Source of the DNA: Branchiostoma floridae
Lineage: Eukaryota > Chordata > Leptocardii > Amphioxiformes > Branchiostomatidae
Length of the DNA: 64,000 nt
Direction of reading: 5' to 3'
Assembly (NCBI RefSeq): GCF_000003815.2
Contig: NC_049994.1
Location: 17,084,789-17,148,788, forward strand
Part shown: one piece after another, positions 2,269-48,034 of the stretch
Position numbering within the stretch: the stretch's first letter is position 1
Layout: each line of letters begins with the position of its first letter
Notes under the pieces: model-generated
Told to the model about the DNA's origin: nothing
Databases searched by the model: none
The model's input: the letters and a program-made list of their open reading frames with translations, nothing else
Program-made: the position numbers and the translations under genes

Positions 2269-3116
2269 TTAAGGAAACAACACGTGGCGTGGAAAGATAG
2301 TTACAGTAGAGTCAATGGTGTTAGATACCACCAAGTGTCCACCCGGGCCTATAGCGATGCACGATGGATTCTTTATGTTCGCGACAGTACGGACAAGCTC
2401 CCCGCGGCTTGTGAACATGTCTACCCTGTTGTCCCGAGTATTCGCCACGATGATGCGACCCAATGGGTCCACGACCAAGGAAATTATTCGGTTGTCTCTA
2501 TACCTCCCGTAGGTTCCTACAGATTCTAATATCTTGTCTCCGAAGTGATTGTACACCTTAACACCGTCAGAGTCCGCAAGCAAGACATTTCCCTTGCAGT
2601 CCGAGGCGACTCCGCGAACTGGAAAGCTATAGGTTGGCCTGCCCGTTAGCACTTGAAAACTTCGAACGAGAGAGCCATTTGGCTGGAAAATTCTAATTGT
2701 GTCTCCCTCTCCAAGGATAACTTTGTTGTTGCGCACGTCTATCGCAATTTTAGGACAAGGCCTATAATGCACGTTGAAGCGGAATTCGAAGGTCTTTATG
2801 GGCAGACCTCCCTTATGGTACTGTACGACACGTACGACACGGGCTTCAACCCCCGCTACCCACAGGTAGTCAGGCTCCACGTCAAAAGCAACAGTTTTGG
2901 GCCACATCATCTTATCTCGACCCGGCACTACCGTTGGGAAGTTGCGCAGATAGGTACCATTTATGCTGAAAACCTGGAAGCGATTGTTGAACCTATCAGC
3001 GACAAATATCTCATTGTCAGCAGACACAGTCACCCCTAAGTTATCATAAAATTGTCCACGTTCATCTGTTCCAAACCCACCGAAGGTGATTGGCTCCAAC
3101 ACTCTGTCATGATTTG
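2269..3116 (-). CDS. NHL propeller, last exon of gene A
   Basis: About 282 codons after the acceptor TTCTTGCAG, entered in phase 1. Six NHL-like blades are visible, each of the form VAVSADNEIFVAD then NRFQVFS; later blades contain GNVLLAD, GRIIVANT and GHLVVSNT. The end TVTIFPRHVLFP matches genes B, C and E. NHL propellers are known protein- or RNA-binding scaffolds; here the domain is extracellular by topology, so ligand binding outside the cell is inferred. Confidence 0.85.
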
Positions 3117-5997
3117 CTGCAAGAAGTAATAAGACGCGTAGAAGCAGTATGCTTAATACATTTACAATAATCTATTACTCTACTCTTACTTCATTTATAA
3201 TCTTTTATATTCTTCTGTCATTTTGTTTATCCAGGGTCATCCAGATGAGCTTCGGAACCCGGTATTATAAAATGCTTAGATTGTAGCTTTTAGCTGTACA
3301 TATCATCAATAGAATAGCCTCTTATTTCTACATGTCAACATTGTTACCTATACCAAAGTCTTTTATTACTTTGTATGTGTACCATTTATTTCGTAATATG
3401 TTACATGTAGCAATTAGCCAACGGGCAAGAACTTGCAATTAAAAATCAAATACTACTATTAAGTCTCACGTCACAAATGTCCAAGTTGAACCATTCATAC
3501 CAACACTCCGGACGAGATTTCGAGCTAGTCTCACCTTTAATCTGTGAACTGTTGGACACTGCCGGCAGTATGGGGAAATACCTGCTGCAGCCAGCCAGGC
3601 TAGAGGTTAAGGTAGAAGCCACAGTCGTTGTCAGCTGTGGAGAGCTTTCTGTAATAGATGATAGAATAGTGCCAGGAATGAGGATGATGTCTGTATCGCA
3701 TGCGACGATCAGTGGGAAGGTATATTAGAATAACCAAGAATATTCACATTTTAAGTTTAAGAACCTCCTCAGGGCAATTTCATCATGTTTCAGTGCATTG
3801 ACCAGTAACCAGCCTTTTCTCAAACAGTTACGCCTTTACAGCCTTTTCTCAAACAGTTACGCCACAGACGACGCCAATATTGTCTTATTTAAAACACCTA
3901 TTGTTAACACTTTACTTTAAACATTATCAACCTCATCTTAGGTCAAAAAAAGTTTGCACATTTGCGACAAAGACCTCTTCAGGACAGCGCTACGGACAAG
4001 TGACAGTGATTATATCTCACCTCCACATTGAGAGCTGTTAGGGACAGAACTGCAGCATCCAGGGGTACCAGGGGTAACGGTGGAACCCACCGTCACTGTC
4101 GACTGTAGATTAATTGGGGAGAGGCCATATATGAGAGAATATACAATCCCACCCTCAACGAAAAAGGGGGGCTACGTATGGAACTTTCCGGCACTTGGGA
4201 CATAGCACTCCCCCCCCCCCCCGCCAACAAAACTTTTAGCTCCTGTAACTAAAACAACAGGAGCTAATTGACTCATTTGCATTAACTGTGTCTTAGCCTT
4301 GATATCCTTTGAAATCCAAATTGTCTTCAGCTTGACTTTGGCTTAGCTTTGTTTTCTTTGGAATCCAAATTGTCTTCAGTCTGAATTGTCTTACAACCTT
4401 TCCTATTGGACATCTGAAATTGTCTTCATTAATAGTTAGAGTATAAAAGACCTGTTTCTTGCAGATCACTTCAGTGTCACTGACGAAGGAAAGTGGATTC
4501 TTTCCGAAACGTCTGACCGTTTCAAAACCATATCCAGTTGCTTGAGTAACTATTTTTGGCGTATCTAAAGATATGATCTAATCAAATTTGCTTCTGACAT
4601 CTAATATCGTGAAATCTATTGTGTTTCAGCATGAACGTGTAAGGTAAGTCATCATATCTCATATCAAAAGCATCCCATTAACGTTAAACGTTTCAGATTT
4701 GAATGAAAGAAAAACTAATCAAAGTAATGATAAACAAAGCCATATCGAGACAGAAGGATACCTCTGGTGGGTCGATATTGTAAAATAGCCAGAGAAAGAC
4801 TCCGCCAACGATGCACGACACAAGGACCGTCACAGCTGAGCACACCATCAGGCGCGAACATTCTGAAAATATGCACATTGCAGCGGTTGAATTGAAAGCA
4901 AATCAATTGGGTATGGTATTGAGAATCACATTGAAAGACAAATGATGGAGAAGAAGTACTATAATAAAGGGAACTGACTAACATTTCTTTACAGAAGTTG
5001 GATATCTAGACATTACTTTACTTGACATTACCTAGAACTAAATTTGACATAGCTTCACAAACAGCCTGATTACTAGTACCCGAAATATGCTGACACGGCC
5101 ATGTTAACTGTTTCACAAAGAAGGGATGCCGTGAATAATTTGTTTCCATTTGTGTGGAATACTGCAAACTGGATAATTCAATTCTAATCATAGTGTACAA
5201 TGTGATTTTTCAGCTTAATTATGTTTAATCCAAACATGTTCAACTTCAGACACAAAATAATCTATCCTAATCTTGTCAAAAACTTCGAAATCAGTAATGA
5301 TTAAAAAAACTTCAACATTGTCCTTTTCATTGATTATCTTAGTGTGAGCCATGTTTAGCTTTTTAAAATTAAGTGGCGCGGAAAGTAACCAAATTCTAAA
5401 AAAACTTAGACGCATCTTACCGCAAGCTGTAGGATGCTGAACGTTTGGCACGTACATCGGATTTTGATTAAGCGCATTCGGGACATGTTGACTTTCCTCA
5501 CTGACAATATCAGTAGGATTTTCGGCACTGCCCGATGGGGTGGTCAAGACATCATTGTTGATGCTATCTGAGGCCGCTTGCCCAGAGTCGGGTGCCATGA
5601 TAGGAGGTTCGTCGTCTTTCTGGTATCCAACAGCACATGGTTGGATATAGGGGTCGCTATCATATGGCTGGGCGACATCACAGCTAGCAGACTGGACGGC
5701 AGATTTTTTAAAAGGACACTTAACAGCATATGACCGGAGGCAGGGACTGTTCTCAATGTTTTCTAGTTCAACGGCACTCCCCTCATCATCATCTTGCTGT
5801 TGTGAAGTAGCATACGGCTGAAGGCGCTGATTGCCATCATTGTTAGCTGACATAAAAGTGACTTCATCTTCTTGCTGACGTGTATCAGCTGATGGCTGAC
5901 TGCAGGGGTTGCCATCACTGTTGTTTGAGTTGGAGGCGGGTCCAGGGCTGGCGTTTGGCTTGATGAAAAGATTAGGGGTCAACCTGGTGTTATATTA
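2269..5997 (-). CDS. Gene A: type II membrane protein with NHL propeller
   Basis: Five exons can be chained in phase: cytoplasmic 5421-5853 or longer, transmembrane 4762-4862, stalk one 4021-4102, stalk two 3535-3648, NHL 2269-3116. The membrane exon reads ECSRLMVCSAVTVLVS then CIVGGVFLWLFY; Arg lies before the hydrophobic run, so the N-terminus should be cytoplasmic. Stalk one is phase 0 to 1 and stalk two phase 1 to 1, so both can be used in series. The cytoplasmic exon opens after a stop near 5997 but has no ATG before the Met at 5853. Gene B has about 280 more residues there, so gene A is either 5' truncated or has another upstream exon. No hit search could be run; the NHL family assignment is firm, the function is unknown. 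Confidence 0.75.
3535..4102 (-). CDS. Two stalk exons of gene A
   Basis: Exon 4021-4102 (STVTVGSTVTPGTPGCCSSV and so on) and exon 3535-3648 (ESSPQLTTTVAS start, then a TLTSSLAG run). Both are short, Ser/Thr/Pro rich and end in a N-S-S-Q motif. The first starts at TCTACAG in phase 0 and ends in phase 1; the second starts at CTATTACAG in phase 1 and ends in phase 1. Their likeness to each other and to the stalks of B and C indicates exon duplication. Likely an O-glycosylated spacer. Confidence 0.65.
4470..4565. mobile_element. Half of a palindromic MITE-like repeat
   Basis: GTCACTGACGAAGGAAAG through AAACCATATCCAGTTGCTTG to TATTTTTGGCGTA matches one arm of the inverted repeat at 24338-24530. 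Only one arm is present here, inside the intron between the membrane and stalk exons of gene A. Confidence 0.55.
4762..4862 (-). CDS. Transmembrane exon of gene A
   Basis: Exactly 101 bp, entered in phase 1 and left in phase 0, the same size and phase as in gene B (18846-18946). The donor is GAG followed by GTATCC in both genes. About 22 hydrophobic residues follow the basic CSR start. Confidence 0.8.
5421..5853 (-). CDS. Cytoplasmic N-terminal exon of gene A (start uncertain)
   Basis: Acidic, Ser/Asn/Gln rich, with four degenerate P-Y-A-V motifs (LQPYATS, LRSYAVKC, IQPCAVGY and a QPYDSD remnant) and one NPxY (NPMYVPNV) before the donor TGCG-GTAAGA. The open frame extends to about 5997 without an ATG; 5853 is the first Met. 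Alignment by eye to gene B starts near SNNSDGNPC, upstream of that Met, so the real product is probably longer through an unseen exon, or the gene is broken at its 5' end. Confidence 0.6.
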
Positions 5998-7185: not shown

Positions 7186-7189
7186 ATCA

Positions 7190-8800: not shown

Positions 8801-8802
8801 TT

Positions 8803-9492
8803 AGTTAAACTCCTCGGCTTGTTCATCCAGGCTGACCTTGGTTGGAACGCACATGTAGACCACATTGTCAAACAAGGCAACCGAAAGCTATTATGCTTAA
8901 ACAACTCAACCAGTTCGATCTGTCTAGGGATGACCTACTTACCTGCTACAAAACATTCGTCCGTCCCAGCTGTGAGTACGCAGCGCCCGCCTGGCATCCT
9001 AGAATAACTACTAGACAGCGACGAAGGATCGAATTCATCCAGAAACGCGCGTGCATAATACTCCGCTCTGCCTACACGTCATACCCAGAGGCGTGTCAGA
9101 TACTGAACTTGTCTACCCTAGATCAGAGAAGAGACCATCTCTGCCTACAGTTCGCTGAGGAACTCCTCCAGTCACCGGACTTCCGTCACTGGCTACCACA
9201 AACCCGGGGGGCTATCACTGGGAGAGCCACAAGGGCCAGCAACCAACTAGACACTGTCAAACCCAGAACTGAACGCAACCAAAAAAAGTGCAATTCCGGG
9301 CCCATGTATGACATGCCTGCTGAACAAAAAGAATAGAAATTAATGTTAACAATGTGACTGTATATTATCTATTGTATATATTTAACGTTTTTTGATGATT
9401 TTATTGTAGTTGTAGCACAGAGGTGCTGTACAGCAAGGCCGCAATTCAACCTCAGGTTGCCAGTGTCGTATTTTTATTCTTAATAAACTATC

Positions 9493-9527
<35 letters not shown>
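8803..9527 (+). mobile_element. 5'-truncated LINE (non-LTR) 3' end
   Basis: The frame from 8842 gives DLLTCYKTFVRPSCEYAAPA and RIEFIQKRACIILRS, typical of the C-terminal part of a CR1/L2-group reverse transcriptase. The first 30 codons (LGWNAHVDHIVKQGNRK) are in another frame, so a frameshift lies near 8895. A stop, a short 3' UTR with AATAAA near 9482 and a (TGAT)n tail to 9527 follow. It split the satellite array, so it is younger than the array. Confidence 0.85.
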
Positions 9528-9530
<3 letters not shown>

Positions 9531-10757: not shown

Positions 10758-11627
10758 TCACCTTTGTCCGTTGAGAGGAAACAGCAAGTGGCTTGGAAAG
10801 ATAGTTACAGTCTTGCCATTTGCGTTAGATACCACCAATTGTCCATTCGGGCCTATGGCAATATATGATGGTTTTTTCGTGTTAACGACAGTACGGACAA
10901 ACTTCCCGCGGCTTGTGAACATGTCCACCCTGTTGTTCCAAGTATTCGCCACGATGATGCGACCCAATGGGTCCACGGAGATGCCTCCCATGCCTCCATT
11001 CCTAGCGGAGGCTACTACAAATTCCAGTATCTTGTGTCCGTAATGATTGTACACCTTAACGCGTCCGTGCCTGTCCGCAAGCACGACATTTCCCTCGCAG
11101 TCCGATGAGACTGCGCGAATTGGAAAGATTGGCATGATTGACACTTGAAAACTCCGAACGAGAGAGCCATTTGGTTGGAACATCATTATCTTATCTCCCT
11201 CTCCCAGGATAACTTTGTTGTTGCGCACATTTATCGCAATTTCGGCATGAGAGAAAAAATAATTCTTGTTACTACGGAAGTCGAACTTCTTTAGGGGTAG
11301 ATCTTTCTTATGATACTGTACGACATGTACATACCGATGTGCAAACAATGTTTGTATCATCCCCGCTACCCACAGGTAGTCAGGCTCCACGTCAACAGCA
11401 ACAGTGTAGGGTTTCATCTTGAAGTATTTACCTGTACCCGGCACTACCGTTGGGAAGTGGCGCAGATAGGTCCCAGTAATGCTGAAGACTTGGACTCGTT
11501 TGGCGCTTGCGTCAGCAACAAATATCTCATTGTCAGCAGACACAGCCACCCCGAAATTAGAATTAAATTTTCCAGGTTCTCTTCCCCGCCTACCAAAGTT
11601 GATCGTCTCTCGTTTTGTCATTATTCT
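10758..11627 (-). CDS. NHL propeller, last exon of gene B
   Basis: 290 codons with blades such as FGVAVSADNEIFVADAS, AIDVRNNK-like AINVRNNKVILGEGD and GRIIVANTWNNRVDMF. Compared with genes A and C, about eight bases are missing between the acceptor and the first blade (24 bp against 32 in C), which changes the entry phase. The C-terminus runs five residues past the family end (PLNGQR). Confidence 0.85.
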   Translation of the reverse strand, partial: RIMTKRETINFGRRGREPGKFNSNFGVAVSADNEIFVADASAKRVQVFSITGTYLRHFPTVVPGTGKYFKMKPYTVAVDVEPDYLWVAGMIQTLFAHRYVHVVQYHKKDLPLKKFDFRSNKNYFFSHAEIAINVRNNKVILGEGDKIMMFQPNGSLVRSFQVSIMPIFPIRAVSSDCEGNVVLADRHGRVKVYNHYGHKILEFVVASARNGGMGGISVDPLGRIIVANTWNNRVDMFTSRGKFVRTVVNTKKPSYIAIGPNGQLVVSNANGKTVTIFPSHLLFPLNGQR

Positions 11628-14600
11628 CTGCAACAAGTAATAAAACCAGTAAAAGTTTGATACATTTACAATCAATTACTCTACACTTCTTTTCCGCCGC
11701 ATCAGATGCAACCATATACATGTAATATATATTATGCCGATGACATGAACAGTCCCAGACAGGCAAATAACGACGAACGGGAAAGAAAATAAAGCCCAAA
11801 CATTAAGGATAGCTTACCAGGACAAAGTATGTACTTGTTTTATTATAGAACTGGCACTGACCACTGCAATGTGCTGGTAAGCTAGAGACTAATCTATTTA
11901 GGGATTCCTCTGCCGTGACAGATGAGACTAGAGAATGAATTGCTCTACCCTTATTTCATTTATCTTTTATTTTCTGTCATTTTCTTTGTTATCCAGGGTT
12001 GTCAAGAGGAGCTTTGTAACCTATGACATGAGTGTTATATGGCAATATATTCGTTTCAAAAATACGGGAGCTATATATGTGACGTTTTATCTAAATTAAC
12101 GTCACATGGGACGTAAAATACGTGACGTCCAACGTATTACAGAAACATCACACTTGCGTGCAGCATAAGTGACGTCCGTTTATCAATAACCTAGTAAATG
12201 ATTTATTAGGACGTGACCAGTGCCTTTGTAGAACGTACGTGACGTGTTTTAACAGATCTGTGTTTGAAATCACGTCACGTGTGAAACAAGGTACGTGACG
12301 TGTTTTAAAGGGTTTGCGACCTACTTAACGGTCGCACTACTTAATTCAAATCAATGTTACCCTTTAGCAACCACTTATTTTGAACCTTCCTTGTATCCAT
12401 GTTCCTATAGCTTATAAAACAAGACGATTTTTCCTTTACCTCCGTAGAAGTCCAGCTCTGTGAGCCATGGCTGCCAGCCTGAGTGGGTCTCGGTAATTAG
12501 GAACCTCCAATACTGAGCTGTTCCCTGGAACCCGCCGAACTCCTGCCGCTCGTCCGTCCCTCCCTGCACGTTAGTAACGGTCACGACGTCCTCCCAGCTG
12601 TACGGACTCCCAACCTGCGACTTTTGCAGCGTGAAGGCTGCAGTGTTATGTTCGGTGTCTCCATAGTTGTTAACAGCGACGCGGGTGATAGTATGTGGCG
12701 CTGTGAGGTCCAGTACAATGTACCAGTTGTTGTAGCTCCTGTCCATGCCCCCGGGGTTCCAGTAGGTCCCAGTGTCCCCATCCAAGGCCTTTGCGGCATC
12801 ATACGTCACTCCGTTGTGTACCCACGGTGTGCCGGCGGAGTCCACAACCCATGACGGATCCCGTTCCAGCCACACACCTGGAGAAGTATAACGTATGTCA
12901 TCATTTCTCTGTCAATATTTCGCATTAAAAAAGGTACCTTTATCTAAACGTAAATATGTCTTATATTAGACATGGAGCGATCGATATCGATGACGCACAT
13001 TACTCAGCACCACAACGGCACACATACACTTGTAGTATGTACAGTATATCTGGTCGGGCCACGAGACATAAAAAATTGATATGTCCTGTTTTAAACGAAA
13101 ACGGAGTCTGGCAGGGGTCGCTTATGAAAACGTGGGACTTATGGAGGAGCCCCATGTTTTGGACGTCCTTAGAAATAGGACTTCTGTGCAAGAAGGGAGT
13201 CCGCAAGGCGTCGCTGCTTGACGGTTGTCACATGTAAAGAAAGGGGGGCATAGATTGCTGTGTGACCGTTTGAAGTATAACAGACGTCTTTAAAGTCGCA
13301 TATAAAAGACGTCACGTACCCTATGTCACATACAACGTGAATTAAACACAGGAACATGTGACGTGTTTTTGGTTTGTCGGACGTGACGTGTGACATCTGT
13401 AAAAGATGTCACGTACTTGTGTCACACGGGACGTGAATTAAACACGGATCTGTTGTACAGGGTGGGACGTCGACAAGTCACGTCCTACTCAATCGTTAAC
13501 GAAGTTATTGATAAAAGGACGTCACATATGCCGCACTTAAGTGTGACGTGTTTGCAATAGGTCGGACGCCACGTATTTTACGTCACACGTGACGTGAATT
13601 TAGGTCAAACGTCACGTATATTGCTCCCGTATTTTGGAAACAGATATATTGCCATAAACCTTCCTTGTGTCCATGTTTGGGACGTCTTTAGAAATAGGGC
13701 TTCTGTGCAAGAACGGAGTCCGCAAGGCGTCGCTGCTTGACGGTTGTCACATGTTAAGAAAGGGGGTGACATAGATTGCTGTGTGACCGTTTGAAGTATA
13801 ACAGACGTCGTTAAAGTCGCATATAAAAGACGTCACGTACCTTATGTCACATATACAACGTGAATTAAACACAGGAACATGTGACGTGTTTTGGTTTGTC
13901 GGACGTGACGTGTGACATCTGTAAAAGATGTCACGTACTTGCGTCACACGGGACGTGAATTAAACACGGATCTGTTGTACAGGGTGGGACGGACGTCGAC
14001 AAGTCACGTCCTACTCAATCGTTAACTAAGTTATTGATAAAAGGACGTCACATATGCCGCACTTAAAGGCAACCTAAGCAATATCACATTGTTAAAAGTA
14101 GAAACATTCTGAATAAGGCAGTCTGTATAACATTGACGTCTAATGCACTATGTTAGCACGTTAACATCATTATTTCATCAATTGAGCCGTTAAAAACAGC
14201 ACGGGAATGAGTTGCACAAGGATTCCAGATCAAGTCCTTATTTTGGGGGGGTACAATAATAAGAAATATTCTCGTGCAACTTGTCTCTGGGCTGTTTTTA
14301 ACCGCTCAAAGTATCAAATTATGATGTAAATGTGAGAATACAGTGCAGTAGATGTCAATATTATGCAGATTGCCTTATTCAGAATATTTTCACTTTCATG
14401 CTGTAATATTGCTTAGGTTGCGTGTTTGCAATAGGTCGGACGCCACGTATTTTACGTCACACGACGTGAATTTAGGTCAAACGTCACGTATATTGCTCCC
14501 GTATTTTGGAAACAAATATATTGCCATAAACCTTCCTTGTATCCATGTTTGGGACGTCTTTAGAAATAGGGCTTCTGTGCAAGAACGGAGTCCGCAAGGC

Positions 14601-17600
14601 GTCGCTGCTTGACGGTAGTCACATATAAAGAAAGGGGGGCAGATTGCTGTGTGACCGTTTGAAGTATAACAGAAGTCTTTAAGGTCGCACGAAAAAGACG
14701 TCACGTACCTTATGTCACAATCGACGCTGATAGCAGGTCGCATAAGTTAAAAACGATGCACTTACACATTCATGCGTGACGACTAGAAATGTTTGCGCTT
14801 GACGTGCTTTAAGTGCTTTAGATATATTGCCAGACATAGTATGGCATCATTTCCGTGTCATAATATCGTATCTTAAAACGTACCTTAAACTAGAAAGGCC
14901 GACATTTGCTTGAGAGCAAATACAGCATATTTCAGCCATCTCCCTCCCCATGCAACAATAGCCTATTTCAAATTTACCCATTTGAAAAATCAAATTTACT
15001 AATGACGGTTTAACCCAAAAATGAATCTTACAAAATTCCCCCGTTCAAGAATGGACTCCAGTGCACCCTATGTGAATTTGCAGAATAGACCAGTCCAGAA
15101 ATACTCCCACTGAAACCTTGGCCTTTTGAATAAGAAACCAAATCCAAAATTGAATTTAGCAAAAAAGGTCCCAGTGCATGAAAAGATTTAATAGACCAGT
15201 CTAAAAACACTTCCACTAAAAATTGAATTTTGAATCATCACCCGTCCAAAACTGAATTTGAAAAAAATCCCCCTCCCGTGTGCAAAAATGGACTCTTCCA
15301 TGTAAAGTAGAGCAGACCAAAAATACATCCGCTAAAATAGGACTTTGACATAATCACTGAAGTCCAAAAAATGGATTTTTAAAAAAGCCCCCTCCATGCA
15401 AGAATGGACTCTTCCAGCACACCCATGTAAAATTGCATATCAGACCAGTCCAAAAATAACCCCACTGAAAGACTTTGACAAACTAGAAGTCACCAAAGTC
15501 CAAAATATGAATTTTAAAAAATCCCCCTCCGTGCGAGAATAGACCCTTCCAGCACACCTTCTGTAAAATAGCAAAATAGACCTGTCCAAAAATACACCCA
15601 CTGAAAGACTTCACCAGTCCAATGATGAATTTAAAAATGTGAACCCCTCCGTGTAAGGATGGACTCTTCCAGATAACACCGGGCTCGCTGATTGGCTGTC
15701 ACCCCCCTCTTTAGGATATAGATTCAGGCTAAGTGATTGGTTACCTATCTTATTAGATTAAAAAGACATATATGCCAGTAGGTGCAATCTGCAGCTGGGG
15801 GTCAACGACCTTAAGGTCATTGACCCCTTCTGGCTATTGGAAAATGACAAAAAAATCCCCAAAAATATCATTTTGACGTAGTCTATGACAAAAATTATAC
15901 ATGTGGCATTTGAATAAATATCTAGTGCACCCTTTTACCAAAATTTAGAAGAGCCAAAAGTGTACTTTTTGGTCATAAAATGGCCAAATAATCGCGAAAT
16001 TAAGCATTTTCTTGTACTGTATGCCTCAAGTGTTAATGAACCCATAGCGCATATGTCTAGGGCACTTCTATACTAAATTTTAGGTCATTCGGTTCTAAAA
16101 CCAAGGTACAGGAGCCCAAAGTGTCCTTTTTTGGTAAAAAAAATCACCAAAAAAGCGCAAAAATAAGCATTTCGTTATACTGTACACCAAAAGTGATATT
16201 GAATTTATATGGGGGAATTATCAAGGCACATCTGTGCCAAATTTCAGCTCATTCGGTTATAATACCAGGGTACAGGGGGGCCAAGTATACAGTTTTGGTC
16301 TTAAGATGACCAAAAAACCTTAATAAAATCATTTTAAAGGCAGGGGGTATTGGCCCACTCTACCCTTGTGCCAAATTTCAGGTGATTCGGTTCAGGAACA
16401 ACGGAGATACCGTGTTTTGAAGATTTGACAGGAGAAAGAAAGAAGAAACAAGAAACATTACGAATACAATATATTTCACCATACCTATGGTATGGCTTAA
16501 ATATAATTAGCGAAAATACGTCAACAATATACGTATTTTCCGGTTAAAACGACATCGTTCTACGTATATGATATCGTCTTGGAACAAAAATATCGGTATG
16601 CTCCATTATACCCAACAAACTTCACTTTGCTAAGCTATCGTTATAAGACGTACCTTAAATGATCGTCATCGGGTATACCCGCACACCATTTACTAGAGTC
16701 TGACCTGTAATCTTGTACACTTCGTTTCCGTAAGGCCCGCCTTCGCCGTCCGATGCGCAGGTTGTGGAAGGGCCGTACTTGTTGTAGGTGTTGAGCCCAT
16801 CAGCAGACCCAAAGCACTGCCCGCCATGTTGTACAGCAAACATGGGAAAGCCACGAGAGAGTGCTACTTGGTAACACTTCTCTATGGGGTTTTCTCGAAA
16901 CAGGTAGTAGTGTCCGTCCAGGCGTGGATCTGTCCCCTCGAGTGTTGGAATAGCGCGGTCACATGTATCATTCCAGCAACCCAGGCTGATGTACTCACGA
17001 CTTTCGCGTCGAATTCCTGTGTGCAAGAGGAAGGGGGTATATGGCATCGTTTCCGTGTCAAAATATCGTATCTAAAAAGTACCTTAGAATAGCAAAATAA
17101 GTCTACGAAATACGTATTTTCCGGTTTAAATGATATCGTTTTGGGTATACGATATCGTCACGGAACAAAAATATCGCTATACTCAATTATACCCAACAAA
17201 CTTCACGTTGCTAAGCTATCGTTATAAGACGTCATCGAGTATACCCGCACACCATTTACTAGAGTCTGACCTGTAATCTTGTACACTTCGTTTCCGTAAG
17301 GCCCACCTTCGCCGTCCGATGCGCAGGTTGTGGAAGGGCCGTACTTGTTGTAGGTGTTGAGCCCATCAGCCGACCCAAAACACTGCCCGCCGTGTTGTAC
17401 AGCAAACATGGGAAAGCCACGAGAGAGTGCTACTTGGTAACACTTCTCTATGGGGTTTTCTCGAAACAGGTAGTTCCGTCCGTCCAGGCGTGCATCTGTC
17501 CACTCGAGTGTCGGAATAGCGCGGTCACATGTATCATTCCAGCAACCCAGGCTGATGAACTCACGGCTTTCGCGTCGAATTCCTGTGTGCAAGAGGAAGG

Positions 17601-20600
17601 GGGTATGGCAATATATTTGTGTCAAAACTTTTGCTCAATTCATGTCACGTGTAACATGGATGACGTGACGTTCACTGTTCGTTACGCCTATGTGACTATT
17701 TTTGCATATGGATGACTTTTTTATCGTTAACCTAGTTAATGATTTGTGACTACAAATTCAGTAAGGGCCTCGGAGGTGACCTGTCCACAATGGCTATTAA
17801 CGAGCGACACCTGTCGAAATTGATACGGTCTAGTCACGTCACATGTGAATCATACAGGGGACGTCTTTTAATAGATCAGAGGTGACCTGTTCAATATCTT
17901 GACAATATAATGATACAGAGAGAAATTGTCAAAGTTGAACCCATCATAACAACTCACCCAGAAGGGAAATTTGCGCTAGGCTCACCTGATCTTTTGGACA
18001 CTGCCGCTGGTGTGGGGACAGAACTATAGTAGCCAGTCGGACCAGAGGTAAAGGCAGTAGCTACAGTCGCATTCCAATGCAGATGGTTATCTGAAATAGA
18101 TTATAAAATCCCACAAGAAATAGTTACTATTTTTTATTTACAGACGAGGACAATGTGGTAATGCATTCAAATTAATAACTTTTGTCACAGTGCTACGGAC
18201 AGGTGGCAGTGATTATATCTCACCTGTACGTTGTGAGCTGTTGGAGACACCTGGCGGTGTGGGGACAGAACTGCAACATCCAGGAGTACCAGGGGTAACG
18301 GTGGAACCCACCGTCGCTGTCGGCTCTAGGTGTTGGATGATCTGACATGGGATCATAAGAATGCACTATCTAAACTCTGGCAAAATAGTTGTTTGTCCTT
18401 GTCGACGAAGTTTTTTGACACGACAATAAGCAGCATGTCGCCAATGGTGACACACTCTGGGGGCACGTCGCCTATTGTTGTGAAAAACGTCTTTGAACAA
18501 TCAATAACTGACTATTTTAGTACAGTCACTTTAAAATACGAAATGTATATACAAAAATATAAACACAGTGTAATTAAACATTCGTTCTAATAGCAAAGGG
18601 ATGTCATCTGTATGGACCTATTTTTTGCATAATGCGAGTTGTCACAGCGAAAGATATATTGTCATCAAATCTACTTTGTGACATCTAATATTGTGAAATC
18701 TATTGTGTTTTAGAAACACAATTAAATAGGTTGTTTGGTAAGACGACATCAAGAGCATATCATCAAAGTTAAACGTTTCAGATTTAAATGAGAGAAAAAG
18801 TAAAAAAAAACACAGAACGAGACAAGGAATAAGACAGAAGGATACCTCTGGTGAGTTGATATTGTAAAGTAACCAGAGAAAGACTCCAGTAACGATGCAC
18901 GACACAAGTACCGTCACAATTGAGCACACCATCAGGCGAGAACATTCTGAAAAGTGCACATTGTAGCAATTTACTTGAAAGCAAATCAATTTGGTATGGT
19001 GTTGAGAAGGGAGAATCATATTGAAATACATATGATGAAGAAGTGCTATGATGAAGGGAACTGACTCATATTTCTCAACAGAAGTTGCATATCTAGACCT
19101 TGCCTGGAAGTAAATCTGACATAGCTTCACAAACAGCCTGGTTACTAGTACCTGAAATATGCTGGCACAGCCATATTAACTATTCACACGGAAGGGATAC
19201 TGTGAATAATTCTATTGTAATAATAGTATACATTTACCGAAATATTTTCAAAACCAAACATGCTTAACTACAGACACAAAGTAACTCATATCCTAATCTT
19301 GTCAAAACCACTGAGATCCGTAATGATTATAACAACTTCAACTTTTTCTTTTTATAGATTATCTACCTAACTGCGAGCCAAGTTTCACTTTTTCAAAACC
19401 AGTTGGCACGGGAAGTACCCAAATGAAAAAAAAAACAGCGTCAAAGCATCTTACCGCAATCTGCAGGATGCTGAACGTTGGGCACGTACATCGGGTTTCG
19501 ATTAAGCGCATTCGGTAGATGTTGCCTTTCCTCATTGACAACATAAGAAGGATTTGGATGAAGCGCATTCGGTACATGTTGCCTTTCCTCACTGACAACA
19601 TCATTAGGATTTCCTTCACTGCTCGATGGGTTGGCCAAGACATCATTGTTGATGCTAGCTGAGGCCGCTGGTCCACAGTCAGGTGACTGGATAGGAGGTA
19701 TGTCGTCTTTCTGGTATCCAACAGCATATGGTTGGATGTAGGGATCGCTATCATTGTTAGCTGACTCGACGATTTCTTCTTGGTATTTAACAGCATAGGG
19801 CTGGCCGACATCACAGCTGGCTGACTCGTCAGCAGGTTTTCTAAAAGGTTTAAGACACTTCACAGCATATGGCCGGAGGCAGGGATTGTTTGCTCTGTGT
19901 GCAATGTTTGCTGTTTCAACGACACTTTCCTCATCACCATCCTTCAGTTTAGTAACTGCATATGGCTGAAGACGCTGACTGCAATCATTGTTTATAGCTG
20001 GCATAAAAGTGACTTCATCACCTTGCTGACGTGTATCAGCTAATGACTGGGGGCAGGGGTTGCCATCACTGTTGTCTGACTTGGAGGCGCGTCCAGAGTT
20101 GACGTTTGGCTCCGTGGTGCTTTGCAGGTACATCGGATTAGGGATAACGTCGTTTGGGGGAGGGTCCATAGTGCTCTGTGTGTACGTTGGGTTAGGATTA
20201 TCTTCGTTTGAAGAAGGGTCCATAGTCCTTTGTGTGTACATGGGGTTAGGATTATCTTCGTTTGACGAAGGGTCCATGGTCCTTTGTGTGTACATCAGAT
20301 TAGGGTTAACTTCGTCTGGAGGAGGGTTCATGGTGCTTTGTGTGTACATCGGGGTTGAATCTCTGGCCTTCGTGTGAATACTACTGTCATTTTCATCACA
20401 CCCTACCAAGTTCATGTCGTTAACATTACTGACGATGGGCTCCGTTACTTGAAAGGGTTCCTTTTTTGTCTCAGCTGGCGTTTTCTTCACGCCACATATA
20501 CTATCACCCTTACATATGTATGCGATAGCATAAGTATCTGAAGGACTGATGTTGATCGCTTGTCTGTTCTCGTCTTTGTGTTCATTTTCTTCACTCCTAC

Positions 20601-31624: not shown

Positions 31625-31679
<55 letters not shown>

Positions 31680-33468: not shown

Positions 33469-34322
33469 TCAAGGAAACACCATGTGGCGTGGAAAGATGG
33501 TTACAGTGCCGTCTTGTGGGTTAGTCGCCACCAACTGTCCATCCAGTCCCATGGTCAGACCCCACGGGTTTGTAATGTTCGCGACAGTACGGACAAACTC
33601 CCCGTGGCTTGTGAACATGTCTACCCTGTTGTTGCCACTGTTTGCCACGATGATGTGACCCATGGGTGTAATACAGATGTCTTTGGGGAATATCAGTCGG
33701 CCCTCCTGGTGTCCAAATGATCCAAATGTGAATATTTTGTTTCCAGAGTGACTATACACCTGAACACTAACGTAGTCCGTCAGCAGGATATTTCCGTCGT
33801 TGTCAGACATGACTCCATGGATTCCCACACTTCGCTCTTTACCTAACGCTTTAAAACTCCGAACTAGAAAGCCATTGGGTTGGAACATCATCATAGTTTG
33901 TCCCTCTCCCACAATAACTTTGTTGTTGCGCGCGTCTATCGCAATGCGGGGCTGAGGAATCTGATTCAAGAAGCGTACATCGAACTTCTTTATAGGCAGT
34001 CCATCCCTACGGTACTGTACGACATGTGCGTCAGGACTAAATATAACCTTTCCCCCCACTACCCACAGGTAGCCAGGTTTCACATCAATAGCAACACTGA
34101 AGGGATGTATTCTCCTATTTTCACCCGGTAATATCGTTGGGAAGAGACGCAGATATGTCCCATTAATGCTGAAGACTTGAACGCGATTGTTACTCAAGTC
34201 AGTCACAAATATCTCGTTGTCAGCAGATACAGCCACTCCGTTGTTTTCTCTAAATTTTCCAGGTTCCTTTCCTCTCCCACCAAAGGTGATCTTCGGCATC
34301 TTTCTGCATCTGTCATGGTTTT
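33469..34322 (-). CDS. NHL propeller, last exon of gene C
   Basis: Entered in phase 1 at CCTCTTGCAG (ENHDRCRKMPKITFGG). Six blades, including NGVAVSADNEIFVTDLSNN, IAIDARNNKVIVGEGQ, GNILLTDYVSVQVYS, GHIIVANSGNNRVDMF and GQLVATNPQDGTVTIFP. Confidence 0.87.
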
Positions 34323-34369: not shown

Positions 34370-34446
<77 letters not shown>

Positions 34447-36850
34447 CACTTTTTTAATTTACTCTTGGAACTGACATTTTTAAAATGAGGTTTTAGATGG
34501 TTAAAATATGTTGCAGTTGCTTGCAAACGTTGCGTGTTTAGTGGTATATAAATTTCCAACTTCCCGACGACAGCCAGTTCAGAATCTACAAAGAAAATTT
34601 GCAATGCATGTTCGTAAACTAAGAAACCAGTGTAGACTGGGGCTCTATAGAACTGTAAAGTTATGTAACTGCCAACCCACTTCACACTAAATGGCGAGTC
34701 AGTGCACGTGCAGTCATTTCTTTTATATTCTGTCCCTGGTGTCCACAATCTTACTTCTTTGTGCAACTTTACTTCAACTTCTCATCTTTTGTCTATGTAT
34801 TTTACACATGGCATGAAGAGTATATTGTACTTAGTAAATTGTCACAGTCAGGCCAGTGGCAAACTATTGAAGTCCATGTTGAAAATTATCCGATTATAGA
34901 TTCTGAAGTACATGTACGACTTGATAATTCATATAGTATTCCTGGGGTCTTTAAGGGAAGGTTGATAAGTACATTATTTTGAGGAATCCTAGGAAATACT
35001 CTTGAGCAGTGTCCAATATCTTGACATAGTGACCCCCCGCCCCCAACACCACCACGCTAAGATAAACCTTACCTTCACGTTGTGAGCTGTTGGAGACTGC
35101 CGGCGGTGTGGGAACAGAACTGCAGCATTCGGCTCCGGTCGGACCAGAGGTAAAGGTAGTAGCCACAGTTGGTGTCAGCTGTAGATAGAGAGCCATTGTT
35201 ACATCGTCATAGCTTATCTAAACTCATTATGAATTGATGTATTTGTCTGACCATGTCTAATGGTGCATGGTGATCCAATATTTTGCACCAGTCTGTAATT
35301 TTGACTAGCATTTTTACTGATTTTGACTAACATGTATTTCCTTATTTAACCTCCTTGATTGATGGAACAATACAGTAAGATCTATTTATAAATTTTCCTC
35401 ACCTCATCGGCAAAGTGGCAATACCACAAGATATAGACAATCATAAGGCCAAAACCTGGAAAAAATTGTCTACAAAGCAATACACAACCTGCAAGGTCTT
35501 AAGACAAAAGCTTACCGCTGGAGGGTTGATGCTACCGAATACCCAGAGAAAGACTCCGCCGACGATGCACAACACGAGGACTGTAGCCGCTGTTACAGCT
35601 GAGAACACCCGGTGACGGGTACATTCTGGAAAATAAGTGCGGAAATGAAAATGTATTGCCATGGTGACGGTGTTATGGTTCACATGTATTAAATTGTACA
35701 TTTGCTGATGTTGCTGTGTTTTAGTATTCGCTTTTTATCCTGGGCCTGGTTGCATTTATAACGGTTGTTTAACACGATGAATGTTTGTAGAGCACTGCTG
35801 TCATGGAAAAACGGTCTCCTGTGTGTGGCGAGTGTCCTTGATATCACATGCATTCAACAACAAACACAACTTGCTGACTTATTGAATTTTTCAACATACC
35901 GGATAGTGAGTGTTTGTGTGAAAGTATCTAAGTATTTATGTGGGGCCGAACCTGGCATGATGCAACTACGTATACGCACGCGTGGACTTTATGACATGCC
36001 TGTACAATTCTTGGAATTTTTTGATAAACTGACGCACACTGTAATGTTAGGCTCGCCCATGAGGCGTCGCCAAAAATCCCAAATTACAGCAGTTGAAGTA
36101 AAAGCAACTGCATTTAATCCTAAATTTCTGCCAGGAACAGAAACATTGTGATAGATAATCAAAGTGACAAAGATTTCCATTCAGAAGTTGGATCTACAGC
36201 TCGTATACAATTAGCAAACACAAATGGCGTAGCGTCACAAAGGAAGTTCAGCTTGATAGAAAGGATTTCATGATCTATTATAATTTTTTAAGTATAAGAC
36301 AAGGTGTACCTGCCGGCCAATTGGCACGCGAATACGAGCGAATATCCAAATGCTCGAAATAAGGACACAGCTTACCAAAAGGTGAGGGATGCTGATTTGG
36401 TTGAAGCGCATTCGGGACACGTTGCCTTTCCTCACTAACAACGTCAGAAGGATTTGAATCATCGCTCGATGGGTTGGCCAAGACATAATTGTTGTGGCTT
36501 GAAGCCGCTGTTGGTTTCTGCATTCTTGTTTCGGTGTGAGTACCCCCTGCCGCCATGTCATCCTGATCCATGTAGGCGACAGCATATGGTTCAATGTCCA
36601 CATCATCAGAGGCGACATTTGCTGTTTGTCCGTTTTGATCTGCAACACCAGTCCTTGGGAGTGGGTGATCATTCCCACTGTCGCCATGTTCCTGGTATTT
36701 AACAGCGTACGGCTGGATGACATCAGAGTCGACTGGTCCAAGGGCAGATTCGTGATCTTCCTGGTATCTAACAGCATATGGCTGAATGCAGGAATTACCA
36801 ATATTGTTAGCTGACTCGATGACAAGATTAGAAGGGCTTGCCTGTGCCAT
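33469..36850 (-). CDS. Gene C: type II membrane protein with NHL propeller
   Basis: The simplest complete member: cytoplasmic 36376-36850, membrane 35516-35625, one stalk 35073-35178, NHL 33469-34322. All joins are in phase and give 514 residues from ATG MAQASPSN to the stop after HMVFP. The membrane exon reads ECTRHRVFSAVTAATVLVL then CIVGGVFLWVFG. The stalk is LTPTVATTFTSGPTG plus CCSSVPTPPAVSNSS. The cytoplasmic part has three P-Y-A-V motifs but no NPxY, unlike A, B, D and E. Function unknown; probably a surface receptor or adhesion protein. Confidence 0.85.
34374..34443. repeat. (AT)n microsatellite
   Basis: About 70 bp of alternating AT in the intron between the NHL and stalk exons of gene C. 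Confidence 0.9.
36376..36850 (-). CDS. Cytoplasmic N-terminal exon of gene C
   Basis: 158 residues. IQPYAVRYQED, IQPYAVKYQEH and IEPYAVAYMDQ are three spaced copies of one motif. The end VPNALQPNQHPSPFG lacks the NPMYxPNV segment that A, B and D have at the same place; a small deletion is the simplest explanation. Confidence 0.85.
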
Positions 36851-38095: not shown

Positions 38096-38117
38096 ATCAT
38101 ATAGCCAGGCGCCGCGG

Positions 38118-38409: not shown

Positions 38410-39697
38410 CGCTGGTTGGCTGGTGCTTAAGAATGACCAGAGAAAGAATCCGGCGACGATACACAGCATCAGGATTGTGGCCGTTGTTACCGCCAAGCAC
38501 ACCCGCTGACGTGTACATTCTGAAAAATAACAGCAATGGAATTAGAAATACAGGAATTGGATTCTAGAGCGTTCTGTTAGCAACAAAAATATGTTGAAAG
38601 ATAAATCATAAAGAGAAGAGAGAACACCAACACTCTCTTAAGACCCTGACTACAATTAGCATATGCAAATGGTGTAGCTACACACAAAGGACATTCTACA
38701 TAATATGAAACTTGTTTGTTTGTATTATACACCCGGTAAACCGCCTTATGGCGTTTCAAACCAGGTTTGTTCTGAATATACAAGCTGCATTATGAGACGA
38801 ATCTAATTGATCTAAGCACACCGGAAAGGACCCCGAATATTTTCGATAAGTGTGCTGGGTACTTTAACGTGCTCTCCGCAAACACGGGACCTCCGTCATA
38901 TCAAGGGACGGCCCAAACCGAAGCTAGGTACTCATTTTCAGTTGAGTGAAGTGAAAGCAAAATCGTGTTATTTGACTTTCCTATTGGCACAAGATCGGTG
39001 GCACATCAACAGAGTCGAACCCAAAACCTTTGGGCTATGAATCGAACACTCAGTGCCGATTGCGCCAAACGACCCCACAGTCGTCCACTGATCTAATATC
39101 AACTATAATGTGACGCAAGATCTGCGTTCAAAACAGTTCGCGCACAAAAAAAGACTACCTACACGTATATATTTCAAATATATATGAGCAAATCTTACCG
39201 CAAGGTGCAGGATGGTGGACGTTTGGCGCGTACATCGGATTTGGAGGAAGCGCATTCGGGAGACTGTCGGAAGAATTTGCACCATGGCTCGATGGGTTTC
39301 CCAACACATCACTGACGCTGTTTGAAGCAGCCATTGGTTTCTGCAAGGGCATTCTTGTTCCGGTGTGAGTACTAGTGTTTCCTGCCGCCATTTCGTCCTG
39401 GTCCATGTATGCGGCAGCATATGGTTCAATGTCTACATCATCAGAGGCGACACTGGCTGTTTGTCCGTTTTCACCTCCATCAGTCCTTGGGAGTGGGTGA
39501 GCATTCCCACTGTCACGTTCCTGGTATTTAACGGCGTATGGTTGGATTGCTTCACAGTCAGCTGGCCTAATGGCAGATTCATTGTTTTCCTGGTATCTAA
39601 ATGCGTTTAACTGGATACAGACATTACTAATATTGTTAGCTGACCCGGCGACATCTGCTCCATTGACTAGAAGATTAGAAGGGCCTGCCTGTGCCAT
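38410..39697 (-). CDS. Module D: cytoplasmic and membrane exons without an ectodomain
   Basis: Cytoplasmic exon 39199-39697 (MAQAGPSNLLVNG; 166 residues; IQPYAVKYQER, IEPYAAAYMDQ and one NPMYAPNV) and membrane exon 38410-38519 (ECTRQRVCLAVTTATILML then CIVAGFFLWSFL). Exon lengths and phases equal those of gene C (membrane exon 110 bp, phase 1 to 0), but no stalk or NHL exon lies before the start of gene C. Spliced to the stalk and NHL exons of C it would give an open 522-residue protein, so D may be an alternative first module of gene C. The alternative is a duplicated gene that lost its 3' half. Confidence 0.7.
38822..39075 (-). mobile_element. tRNA-derived SINE
   Basis: On the minus strand an A box TGGCGCAATCGG (39056-39067) and B box GGGTTCGACTC (39012-39022), then GTGCCACCGATCTTGTGCC and a body ending TTTCCGGTGTGCTTA. 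It lies in the intron between the two D exons. Confidence 0.7.
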
Positions 39698-43580: not shown

Positions 43581-43585
43581 AATGT

Positions 43586-43675: not shown

Positions 43676-43852
43676 TCCTTCCTACACCGCAGGGTGTAAA
43701 GGGTGGTGCCCCCTTCCGTTCTTTAGCCCGGGGCCACACAGGGAAGTACTGATCAGAGGGATCGGCTAGTCACGGGAGTACAGATTTTTCGGTATTTTTT
43801 TCAAATGGTAACTTTATGGCCTGCTAACTCCTTGGGCAATCCAGATAGACTA

Positions 43853-44694
43853 TTACGGATATACCATGCGTCTTGGAAAGATGGTTAGAGATTTGTGGGC
43901 TTGGTTGCATACCACCAAATGTCCGTTCCGCCCCATTGCAATACCACTTGGGTATGTGATATTCACCACAGTGCGGACAAACTTCCCTCGGCTTGTGAAC
44001 ATGTCTACCCGGTTTTTGTCTTGGTTCGCCACGAGGATGTGACCCGAGTTGTCCACTAGAATACCCTGGGGGTGGCAGAATGCGCAACTGCTAAAAGCAA
44101 ACAGCGACTTTCCGGACAAAGTGTAGGCTCTGACGTGGTGAGACTTGTCTGTGACAAGGATGCGCCCTTCGTCGTCTGATGCGACGAACGAAAGTATCCA
44201 TTCTAATCCTTGAGCATGATTTTGGAACGTGTGGTACAAAGAACCGTTGGGATGGAAAACCAAAATGTTTAGCATCTCAGTGACGATGACTTTATTGCTG
44301 TGCACGTTAAAGGCGATGCTGGGAGCCCACCGGGTCAAATTGGCACCAAATGTTATCCCTGGTTGGCCATCGGGGCTGTACTTTACTACATGTACAGAAT
44401 GTAAGCGTATCGCACTCTTGTAAATCGTCCCCACTACCCACAGCTGACCCTCTCTGTCAATGGCAACATCGGAGGCCACCATCGTTTTTTCACCTTTTCC
44501 CGGTACTACAGTCGGGAACAGTCTGAGATAGTCTCCCTTCATGTTAAAGACTTGGATTCGATTATTGTAGCCATCGGCCACAAATATTTCATGGTCAGAA
44601 GAGACGGCCACTCCACGATTGTCGTTAAATGTTCCAGGGTCTTTGCCGTACTTACCAATGGTTATCTCAGATGTCATGTTGTTATCACTGCTTC
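43853..44694 (-). CDS. NHL propeller, last exon of gene E
   Basis: Entered in phase 1 (SSDNNMTSEITIGKYG). Blades include RGVAVSSDHEIFVADGYNN, VAIDREGQLWVVG, GRILVTDKSHHVRAYT, GHILVANQDKNRVDMF and GHLVVCNQAHKSLTIFP. More diverged than the A-C propellers but with the same length and end (RRMVYP). Confidence 0.87.
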
Positions 44695-47600
44695 CTGCAA
44701 GGAAAGATAAACACTGATGATGACAAGGGATTTTTTTAATTTGCTTTGGAACAGACGAAGGCAATTTGGCACTGCTAACAGTGCCACACGCAAAGTACAG
44801 ACACAAGGTAAAGGTAGTATTTTACCCCCCCCCCCCCCCGACTGAAATCAGGGACATATTTTTACCCATTTTTACCCAAGTGAGTGAGGAAGGTTGGGGC
44901 ACAACGTCGGGGGCACGGTAAGTACGGATCTCGGGACCTCTTGGTTCGAAGCCCAACGCTCTACCAGTTACGCCACACGTGACAAAGGATTGAAATCTTG
45001 GGAAAGGCACATTTTAACACAACTTTCCACGAATCAAAGAACCATAGACCATATTGAAAATCACAAATCAGCGCTGCCGCCATAAAATAAAAGTCAGTGC
45101 TACGAGAAGTCTGCAAAGGAGGCTACAGTTAAACCTACGTGCGTATGTTTATTGACGACGCCTCAGGGGAGTCGTCAAGTGGTATATTTTGCATTCAGTC
45201 TGCAAAAATTCTAGGAATTGCACAGGCATTTCCACAGGAATGCAGTATGCTGGGTATGCAAGCCCTCCCCCCCCAAATCTGTTCCAGATGTATCTCTGGT
45301 ATGCAATGGTGGAATGTAGGTCACACTTGCTCCCTGGAGAAATTTGTCCTTTGAAACTAGACAGGGAACTCTGCACAATGGATCACGTTATCTTGGTTGT
45401 TATGTTATGTTATGAAGGATACATTTTCTTTTCTAGAGCTTGTTCAAGCCATACGCCACAGGCAGACAGGAAATACTTCTGTAGTGCTCAGTTGTAGGTT
45501 TAGGTCACTGGCAGACCATTGTGCTGTACCGGGGATAGTACATTTCTGCTGGCTGTAGGTTTATGTTACAGGTGGGCTAGTATATTGTGCCAGGGATAGT
45601 GCGACAGGGAAGTTCCAGTCTATTTCTGATTTGAGCTGTATTGTTGTACCCTCAATCGTCGTCATGGCAATAATACATTTTTATTGCCAGTCTTATTTTG
45701 CATTTACATTGGCAAAAATAAAGTACTGAACAAAGAATTACCGATTTGGTTCTTGGAGTTTGACGGTTGTGTGGCGATTGACGGTTGTGTGTCGGTTGAC
45801 GGCTGGTAGGCGGTTGACGGTTGTGTGTCGGTTGACGGTTGTGTGTCGGCTGACGGTTGGTAGGCGGTTGACGGTTGTGTGTCGGTTGACGGTCGCGTGG
45901 CGGTTGACGGTCGTGTGGCGGTTGACGGTTGTGTGGCGGTTGACGGTTCTGTGGCAGTTGACGGTCGTGTGGCGGTTGACGGTTGTGTGGCGGTTGACGG
46001 TTGTGTGGCGCTTGACGGTTGTGTGGCGGTTGACGGTTGTGTGTTACCCTGTGAATCTCTAGAGGTTGCTGCCAATGTGGTATCGTGTGGGCTAGTGGGA
46101 GTCATTTTGGCACCTTGTGAACTTTTGAAAATCGGTTGCTCTGTTGGTGCCCCTATCTCCAAAGACATGTTCGCAGTCCCTACCTGTGAAATAATATAGA
46201 TAGAGATAACATCCAGCCCTTACCACTTAAATGAAATTCTATACCTTTAGCAAAATGTCAAAATCATAAAAATGATGGAACAATGTTCCATTTATATAAT
46301 ATGTGTAAAAGTGAAAAAAAGCGATGCGTCCACGATTCCTGTTTCTTAAATTAGCAAACGAATGATTCTTACGTTTAGATCACCCTCCGCGCCAGAACTG
46401 GTGTATACACCGGCAATCGTTCCGAGGATGACCAAAGACAGCAGGACACCGACAATTATCACAGCAGTACACACTTGGCGATGTCCATAGCCTGAAACAT
46501 GAAGTATGAACAAACAAATATTTGCTGTCCTTTAAACCCAGTTAAACCACTCAGAGCAACACTGTACATAGCTCCCAATCGGTTGCTAAATAGTTATCTG
46601 TACATGGACAAGACCTCTGACCCCCAAGTTCAGAGCCTATATTTCAACCTAGATATCAAGTTTAACTTATGTTCTAATCAAGAAGGTTTGTCTTAATGCT
46701 TCATCATGTTGTTCTACTTGACGTAAACGTTAAACATTTGAGTTAATCTTGTATATCATATGAGACGTGTAAATGCGCGTATGTGTTGGCACCCACTATC
46801 AGCTAAGCTGCCATGTATTGTATTGTCCGCAATTCCAATAAATCTAAATCTAAAATGAAGTACAATATTCTAATCCCAACCACAGATAAATGAACAACAT
46901 GAATTCACAGAAGCCGTATCTAACATACATGACGAAACAAATACTGGTCTGATCTTGGCACTCTCTATGAAATGCAGCTAGATTTTATATATAGACTTGG
47001 CAACTTCTAACAGACGAAATGTAGTTATTGAATAAGATCTAGTTATGTTGTCCTCATTCTGGGTCGTTGATAGTATCTAAGCCCATTAGACAGTACATTA
47101 ACGCTGAACAAAAAGAAATCAGTCAAAGTGTAACTGTCTTACCACAAGGTCCTTGTTGTGGGGGGTTCGGTATTGGATTCGGGGCATTTCCGCCGTACAA
47201 TGGATTCGGACGGAGCACACTCGAACATTTGTTAAACAAAAAACCTGAGGCTGGATTGTTAGATTCATTCTCGGATGTGTCACATTTCGCTTGGTCTGAG
47301 TTGGTAGAGACGTTGTTGCTGCTGCTTGGAGCCATTTCTGCTGTCTGCACTTTGTGCTGTGTTCGTTCCTTTTCAGGAACGCCTATGGGAACCTTTGGCG
47401 CCGTGTCGTCCGGGCACGCGGTCGGACTGCATTGGGCTGAGTAGACAGGGTTGGGGAAGTTGTACGCAACAGCGTATGGCCTCATTTCGTCGTCGATATC
47501 ACTTGTCTGCCCGTCTTCTGCTATAGCAGCATGTCCTGTGGTTGGGGCGCTGCCATTGTAATCACCATCATCATCACCGTCACCACCATCTCTCTGGTAC

Positions 47601-48034
47601 GTAACAGCACATGGTTGGCTGTCGACATGCAGGATGCAGGGTTCGTTATCAGCTGGTCTAGAGGAGGTTCTAGTGACAGCGTTTGGCTCACTGTTGGGAC
47701 AAGTATCCACTTCGTCTTGCTGACATGACGAGTCAGGATTCTCCTGGTACATCGGACTTGGGTCAACGACATTTTGGTTGCTAAGTGGATTAGAGATTAA
47801 AGTGTTTTCCTGGTAAGTCGGATTTGGGTCCTGGTTGTGTTGCGGGCATATTTCACATGGAGCCGGGGTGTTTTGCTGATACATCGGATTAGGGTTCACG
47901 GTGTTTTGGCCCTCCATTGTATCATAGTTCTGAAGGTAGATCGGGTTCAGGTTTCTGGCCTTTGTCTCGCACTTTAAATTTGGCTGAAGTCTGTTTGGAG
48001 TGGTTTGGGTATCCACGACAGAATCTGACGCCAT
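43853..48034 (-). CDS. Gene E: type II membrane protein, mucin-like stalk, NHL
   Basis: Four exons: cytoplasmic 47143-48034, membrane 46373-46491, mucin-like stalk 45742-46183, NHL 43853-44694. Joins are all in phase and total 764 residues. The membrane exon reads GYGHRQVCTAVIIVGVLLSL then VILGTIAGVY, with His/Arg on the N-terminal side (type II). Compared with A-C it has a different, longer stalk and no CCSS stalk exon. It is the most diverged member and sits at the edge of the cluster. Likely a long-stalked surface protein. Confidence 0.85.
44920..45000 (-). mobile_element. tRNA-like SINE head
   Basis: On the minus strand: GTGTGGCGTAACTGGTAGAG (A box at 44964-44975), GTTGGGCTTCGAACCAAGAG and GGTCCCGAGATCC. 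The fold looks degenerate, so a functional tRNA gene is unlikely. Confidence 0.5.
45742..46183 (-). CDS. Mucin-like stalk exon of gene E
   Basis: 442 bp, phase 0 to 1. After a unique start (VGTANMSLEIGAPTEQPIF) come about 15 tandem copies of a six-residue unit, TQPSTA, TRPSTA, TQPSTD or YQPSTD, encoded by an 18-bp minisatellite (45760-46030). Thr/Ser/Pro density predicts heavy O-glycosylation and a stiff spacer. Copy number is likely to vary between alleles. Confidence 0.85.
46762..46852 (+). mobile_element. Retroelement 3' tail, family Y, copy 2
   Basis: GTTGGCACCCACTATCAGCT, CATGTATTGTATTGTCCGCA and AATAAATCTAAATCTAAA; pair of 43586-43675. Confidence 0.6.
47143..48034 (-). CDS. Cytoplasmic N-terminal exon of gene E
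   Basis: 297 residues from MASDSVVDTQ. NPxY motifs: NPIYLQ, NPMYQQ, NPTYQE, NPVYSA, NPLYGG, and SPMYQE as a near miss. P-Y-A-V motifs: MRPYAVAY, with SQPCAVTY degenerate. The end CGK before GTAAGA is shared with A, B and D. Acidic DGGDGDDDGD stretch in the middle. Confidence 0.85.

Follow-up and report, generated by a model that had tools for sequence, protein, structure and literature searches.

NHL propellers of the TRIM type are elsewhere intracellular heads of ubiquitin ligases that bind RNA and proteins. An NHL propeller outside the cell is found in teneurins, which a published account (PMC6297184) describes as single-pass proteins whose N-terminus lies inside the cell and whose six-bladed NHL propeller lies outside it; the view of the initial annotation of the present locus, that an outer NHL propeller on a type II membrane protein is unusual, overlooks these proteins. 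Among the open-licence papers listed by our searches, no title or abstract opening describes a lancelet family combining NHL, membrane and NPxY parts. Here, we describe such a family from Branchiostoma floridae, starting from a stretch of 64,000 nucleotides (C16:17084789-17148788, hereafter the window) and extending the searches to a genome of 513 Mb in 431 contigs. With high confidence, the succession of tyrosine-motif tail, membrane helix, stalk and propeller is a real design at the genomic level that belongs to a large family.

The unit models of the window were built with consensus splice sites on the minus strand, which there carries five tail exons with tyrosine motifs, five membrane exons and four propellers. 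The four NHL-carrying open reading frames of the window lie on this strand, and the propellers of units A, B, C and E measure 279-289 aa. The five units on one strand that had been annotated are therefore present as tails and membrane exons, but only four propellers go with them, as unit D is headless; their annotated span, from the ATG of E at 48034 to the end of the stop codon of A at 2269, agrees with our coordinates. Within a unit, the exon order is a tail exon ending in phase 1, a membrane exon (phase 0), stalk or other exons (phase 1) and finally the propeller, with canonical splice sites and phases 1-0-1 in A, C and E as well as in the flanking units F and G. Units E, C and A are open throughout (764, 514, and 525 aa, respectively), A only from an internal ATG.

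Unit E begins with a tail exon that starts with MASDSV, contains five NPxY motifs and ends at the donor GTAAGA (47143..48034); in the genome search, this tail retrieved only itself plus three weak matches. It is followed by a membrane exon (46373..46491, by splice model and charge analysis), a mucin-like stalk exon of ATQPST repeats with 39% Ser+Thr (45742..46183), and the NHL propeller as last exon (43853..44694). In unit D, the splice model gives a tail exon (39199..39697) and a membrane exon with a phase 0 donor (38410..38519), without a stalk or propeller of its own. The nearest ones downstream are those of C, and since the phase of the D membrane donor fits the stalk of C, D may serve C as an alternative 5' part or may be a headless remnant. 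Unit C itself comprises a tail exon (36376..36850), a membrane exon (35516..35625), a stalk exon (35073..35178) and an NHL propeller supported by Pfam (33469..34322); membrane exon and propeller also served as genome search queries. The NPxY tail that had been attributed to the units holds for A, B, D, and E, whereas C has no NPxY and instead carries three PYAVxY repeats.

In unit B, the tail exon (19455..20724, also a genome search query) is followed by a membrane exon (18846..18946), two stalks (18224..18323 and 17986..18090), two WSC-like exons that are 95% identical to each other (17271..17582 and 16705..17016) and one F5/8C exon recognized by Pfam (12440..12877), the last three in phase 1-1. 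The middle exons had been annotated much in this way, and the stalks of A and C, the stalks, WSC-like and F5/8C exons of B and the ATQPST stalk of E were all recovered, but the WSC-like exons score 21.7 and 22.1 bits and thus lie under the Pfam cut-off of 27.8, and a PDB search gave no solved relative of the WSC-like exon. By splice model and alignment, the propeller exon of B (10758..11627) does not keep the frame when read from its conserved acceptor and meets a stop after 12 codons; an AG located 19 nt further downstream would restore the frame (exon start 11608). In unit A, the 5' part and start of the tail exon that are present in B are missing; the open frame reaches 5994, and the exon is modelled from the first in-frame ATG (5421..5853). 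It continues with a membrane exon (4762..4862), two stalks (4021..4102 and 3535..3648) and an NHL propeller supported by Pfam (2269..3116).

Several other features share the window with these units. A degenerate minisatellite lies at 7400-10400, 32500-33300, and 37600-38100, and a repeat that resembles it by eye is present at a receptor locus elsewhere in the genome (L021:7884-8741). An approximately 90-base tandem repeat at 52924-53466 is open on both strands. On the plus strand, a hydrophobic ORF of 157 aa (57140-57613) has no Pfam match, and neither has an ORF at 8836-9336 that by eye resembles the terminal part of a reverse transcriptase from a non-LTR retrotransposon.

Pfam NHL matches of the window propellers range from E 1.4e-11 to 4.4e-21, far above chance, and the best relatives in the PDB are Thin (1.6e-45), TRIM71, TRIM3, TRIM2, and Brat, which makes the head TRIM/Brat-type; a WD-40 protein (2ymu, 3.2e-34) ranks among the TRIMs. 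Teneurins appear in the same profile search at E 0.0013-0.0016, and the TEN_NHL family reaches 11.8 bits on unit C, under its cut-off of 27.1. A teneurin ancestry of the propeller was ruled out on the comparison of 0.0013 with the 1.6e-45 of Thin. A scan against ncbifam returned only bacterial NHL names, far under their cut-offs. The AlphaFold2 model of the head of unit E (mean pLDDT 86, pTM 0.87) has 24 strands, which is what six blades of four would give. N-glycosylation sequons in the heads were not above shuffled sequences, and sequon enrichment was consequently dropped as evidence for topology.

A type II topology is, however, predicted on the basis of other features. No hydrophobic stretch was found in the nine tails of the array (maximum mean hydropathy of 0.97 over 19 residues), the net charge is more positive on the N-terminal side of the helix in 21 of 22 membrane exons (the exception being locus L017), the stalks are Ser/Thr/Pro-rich with 33-39% Ser+Thr, and B carries F5/8C and WSC-like modules, both of which belong to extracellular module types. 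The tails contain five NPxY motifs in B, E, and F, four in G and I, three in H, one in A and D, and none in C, while motifs of the form YA[VIA]xY occur three times in B, C, F, and I, twice in D, G, and H, once in E and not in A. In B, E, F, G, H, and I, the observed three to five NPxY compare with shuffle means of 0.12-0.21 and were reached in 0/500 shuffles each, whereas the single NPxY of A and D was reached in 23/500 and 25/500, respectively. Judging from these motifs, the tails may bind PTB or SH2 adaptors.

The initial annotation named five units; this count is correct for the tails and membrane exons of the window, but the family is much larger. Already the array continues beyond the window and comprises ten units on both strands over about 100 kb (C16:17030356-17132822). 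On the minus strand, the flanks add F (762 aa) and G (795 aa), whose frames are open, as well as H, which has a frame break in its tail; on the plus strand are I, with a stop inside the propeller, and J, which consists of a propeller only, near N gaps. The 30 kb past the right edge of the window gave no further units, and the left end of the array is uncertain owing to 19,612 N in the left flank. Genome-wide, the C propeller has at least 139 matches at E up to 1e-15. Subtracting 48 of the matches listed, which form a cluster at C17:18.3-18.9 Mb, and two second pieces leaves 89 propeller loci, some decayed copies included, and at 57 of these a tail and/or membrane exon lies upstream on the same strand (queries: B tail, tail of locus L024, C membrane exon; median tail-to-head distance 2.8 kb over 57 tail-head pairs). 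Direct reading of the DNA adds unit E of the window, L025, and L028, giving 60/89, and further revealed L029, which lies outside the 89. By the three queries, 32 of the 89 had no tail or membrane exon.

The 80 rows of the B tail query were merged by eye into 47 loci. Downstream of 43 of these, a propeller lies on the same strand at a distance of up to 20 kb (41 different ones, with D and C16:17743934 using that of a neighbour), as opposed to 2/47 on the opposite strand. A same-strand propeller also lies upstream of 25/47 tails, which is due to the tandem clusters. Outside C16, 13 of 15 B-tail loci are paired, with an expectation of 0.17% per locus. Three of the four unpaired loci were read (L021-L023; the fourth is a weak match), and all three run into an NHL exon, which is truncated, contains a stop or breaks off at an N gap. 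Chance adjacency of tails and propellers is ruled out by the pairing at 43/47 and, off C16, at 13/15 loci; that a B-like tail is equally common to many unrelated heads is likewise ruled out, by the 43/47 and the decayed NHL exons. Of the 41 matches to the C membrane exon, 36 are followed by a propeller at no more than 11 kb, and 34 of the latter also have an upstream tail. Among five paired loci that were read (L016-L020), four show tail, membrane exon and propeller in order, and in L019, which contains 631 N, only tail and propeller matched; stalk exons matched in L016, L017, and L020. L020 also has an F5/8C exon that is 87% identical to that of B but is placed ahead of stalk 2, while the one in B comes after the WSC-like exons. 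Five propellers lacking a B-like tail were read as well (L024-L028): four are accompanied by a diverged tail and by a membrane exon; at L026, neither was found in the 4.5 kb read.

Splice phases bear on whether these exons form one gene. They were compared for nine further loci that lie apart from the array (L016, L017, L018, L020, L024, L025, L027, L028, and L029), leaving out loci with parts lacking (L019, L026), broken heads (L021-L023) or no head (L030-L032). At all nine, the membrane acceptor leaves 2 nt, and an AG leaving 2 nt precedes the propeller, several loci having more than one candidate AG and L028 and L029 having an AT-rich rather than a pyrimidine-rich lead; the tail donor is in phase 1 at seven and the membrane donor, by pattern, in phase 0 at five (L017, L018, L020, L025, and L029). 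Moreover, head and tail similarity are correlated over 17 loci (Mantel r 0.773, reached by 0/5000 permutations, of which the highest gave 0.473). Nearest relatives by head and by tail agree at only 6/17 loci, so exon exchange does happen. A rather different account would be that separate kinds of genes, i. e., short tail/membrane genes and cytoplasmic NHL genes, lie side by side in tandem blocks. It could draw on the ATG near the start of the NHL exons of B, C, E, I, and J, on D with its tail and membrane exons but no head, and on L015, a locus of the same genome with an NHL propeller and no noted membrane exon. It does not sit well, however, with the pairing of tails and propellers on many chromosomes, the AG leaving phase 1 at the same place before the array propellers (with the frame of B broken thereafter) and at the nine other loci, the absence of an ATG from the corresponding position of A, F, G, and H, and the co-divergence of head and tail, and we regard it as very improbable. 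The joint tail-membrane-propeller genes proposed in the initial annotation are well supported at the genomic level by compatible phases, linkage on many chromosomes and correlated divergence; the direct evidence covers the order of the exons, the compatibility of their splice phases, the fold class as judged from sequence and model, the linkage across the genome and the co-divergence.

A second question is whether the tail belongs to the propeller receptors only. The diverged tail of L024 returned 52 rows that merge into 39 loci, 25 of them paired and 14 without a listed propeller within 20 kb. One of the latter (C11:127536) is L021, and four more were read (L029-L032). L029, with its distant tail, does lead to an NHL exon, whereas the other three show none in 6.6-7.5 kb: L030 has a tail, membrane exon and repeat stalk, and in L031 and L032 the tail alone was recognized. 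Because of these three loci, the tail may serve other receptors as well, and it is possible, if somewhat doubtful, that it is a general amphioxus receptor chassis of which the NHL head is one of several ectodomains, an idea that is compatible with our preferred one and to which similar tails in other lancelet receptor models presumably also speak. On the other hand, 41 of the 47 B-tail loci own a downstream propeller, and another three run into an NHL exon that is decayed or cut off. A tail-like ORF with ten YAV motifs lies at L032:6167-7000 (minus strand) without NHL in 7 kb, and possibly belongs to another kind of receptor. It is furthermore unlikely that the copies in the window are for the most part pseudogenes in decay, belonging to an otherwise ordinary family: frame breaks in B, H, and I, the missing start of A and the missing head of D would fit, but C, E, F, and G are open throughout, and pooled dN/dS (A, B, F, G, H, and I; pairs not independent, the tail of H including an out-of-frame end) stays under 1 for all four parts (0.74 for the head, 0.58 for the tail, 0.61 for the membrane exon and 0.41 for the stalk), although the heads stand at 0.74 and some pairs and windows exceed 1. 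The latter are four head windows with pN/pS of 1.03, 1.14, 1.44, and 2.10 from non-independent pairs (the last at the very end, with few sites) and the short-exon pairs stalk A2-B2 (1.82) and membrane D-E (1.24). The head value is best read as mild constraint; strong diversifying selection was ruled out, with every pooled value below 1.

The F5/8C exon of B has at least 152 genomic matches and, among those listed, nine others are 86-92% identical to it (on C18, C16, C17, C5, C8, and C2). It appears to be a recently spreading phase 1-1 exon, and its distribution across chromosomes is in line with the phase 1-1 exon shuffling in lancelets that is reported in PMC4284660.

On our preferred reading, the genes encode type II receptors that cross the membrane once. 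Their acidic tail, in which NPxY and PYAVxY motifs recur, would lie inside the cell and precede a single membrane helix; outside, a Ser/Thr/Pro-rich stalk of variable length, in some copies with WSC-like and F5/8C modules, would carry at its tip a six-bladed NHL propeller of the TRIM type, which would bind an outside ligand. The tyrosine motifs may then recruit PTB/SH2 or clathrin adaptors, leading to uptake and signalling. Both tandem and dispersed duplication would have enlarged the family, and its heads would have diverged more quickly than the tails, the membrane helix and the stalk. We infer transcription, topology, ligand binding and signalling of the family members, and on the strength of sequence features a function as endocytic or signalling recognition receptors of type II has about even chances. 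More tentatively, the approximately 60 or more loci may represent a lineage-specific repertoire in which a TRIM-type propeller has been relocated to the cell surface to serve as a variable ligand-binding head encoded by one exon, conceivably for immune or self recognition, a role that is a guess. If the receptor reading holds, propellers of a class studied inside cells would function outside them, in an extensive receptor family of a basal chordate; a TRIM-like label on gene models that contain the propeller alone could then conceal membrane receptors, and lancelet recognition could be tested on a concrete set of genes.

Among known systems, the TRIM-NHL proteins resemble the lancelet family in the propeller itself, as Thin, TRIM2, TRIM3, TRIM71, and Brat are its best-scoring solved relatives. 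In contrast to them, the lancelet propeller is preceded by a tail, a membrane exon and an extracellular-type stalk, and a Pfam scan of ten long unit ORFs gave no RING, B-box or coiled coil before it. The genome also has 48 propeller matches clustered at C17:18.31-18.91 Mb, which lie in open frames of 303-965 aa and whose propellers are 43-49% identical to that of unit C; one example (L015:482-2227) is a single frame of 581 aa in which a region that looks coiled-coil-like by eye is followed by NHL, and in which RING and B-box had no match. The lancelet proteins would resemble teneurins in a type II plan with an outer NHL propeller, with which their sequence features agree. The Pfam-scanned unit ORFs contain no EGF, YD/RHS or teneurin C-terminal domain, and the chain stops right after the propeller. 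Teneurins, by comparison, combine EGF repeats with a propeller in mid-chain, YD/RHS and a C-terminal domain related to toxins, and their propeller is only weakly similar to the lancelet head (0.0013 as compared to 1.6e-45 for Thin), which is C-terminal and encoded by a single exon.
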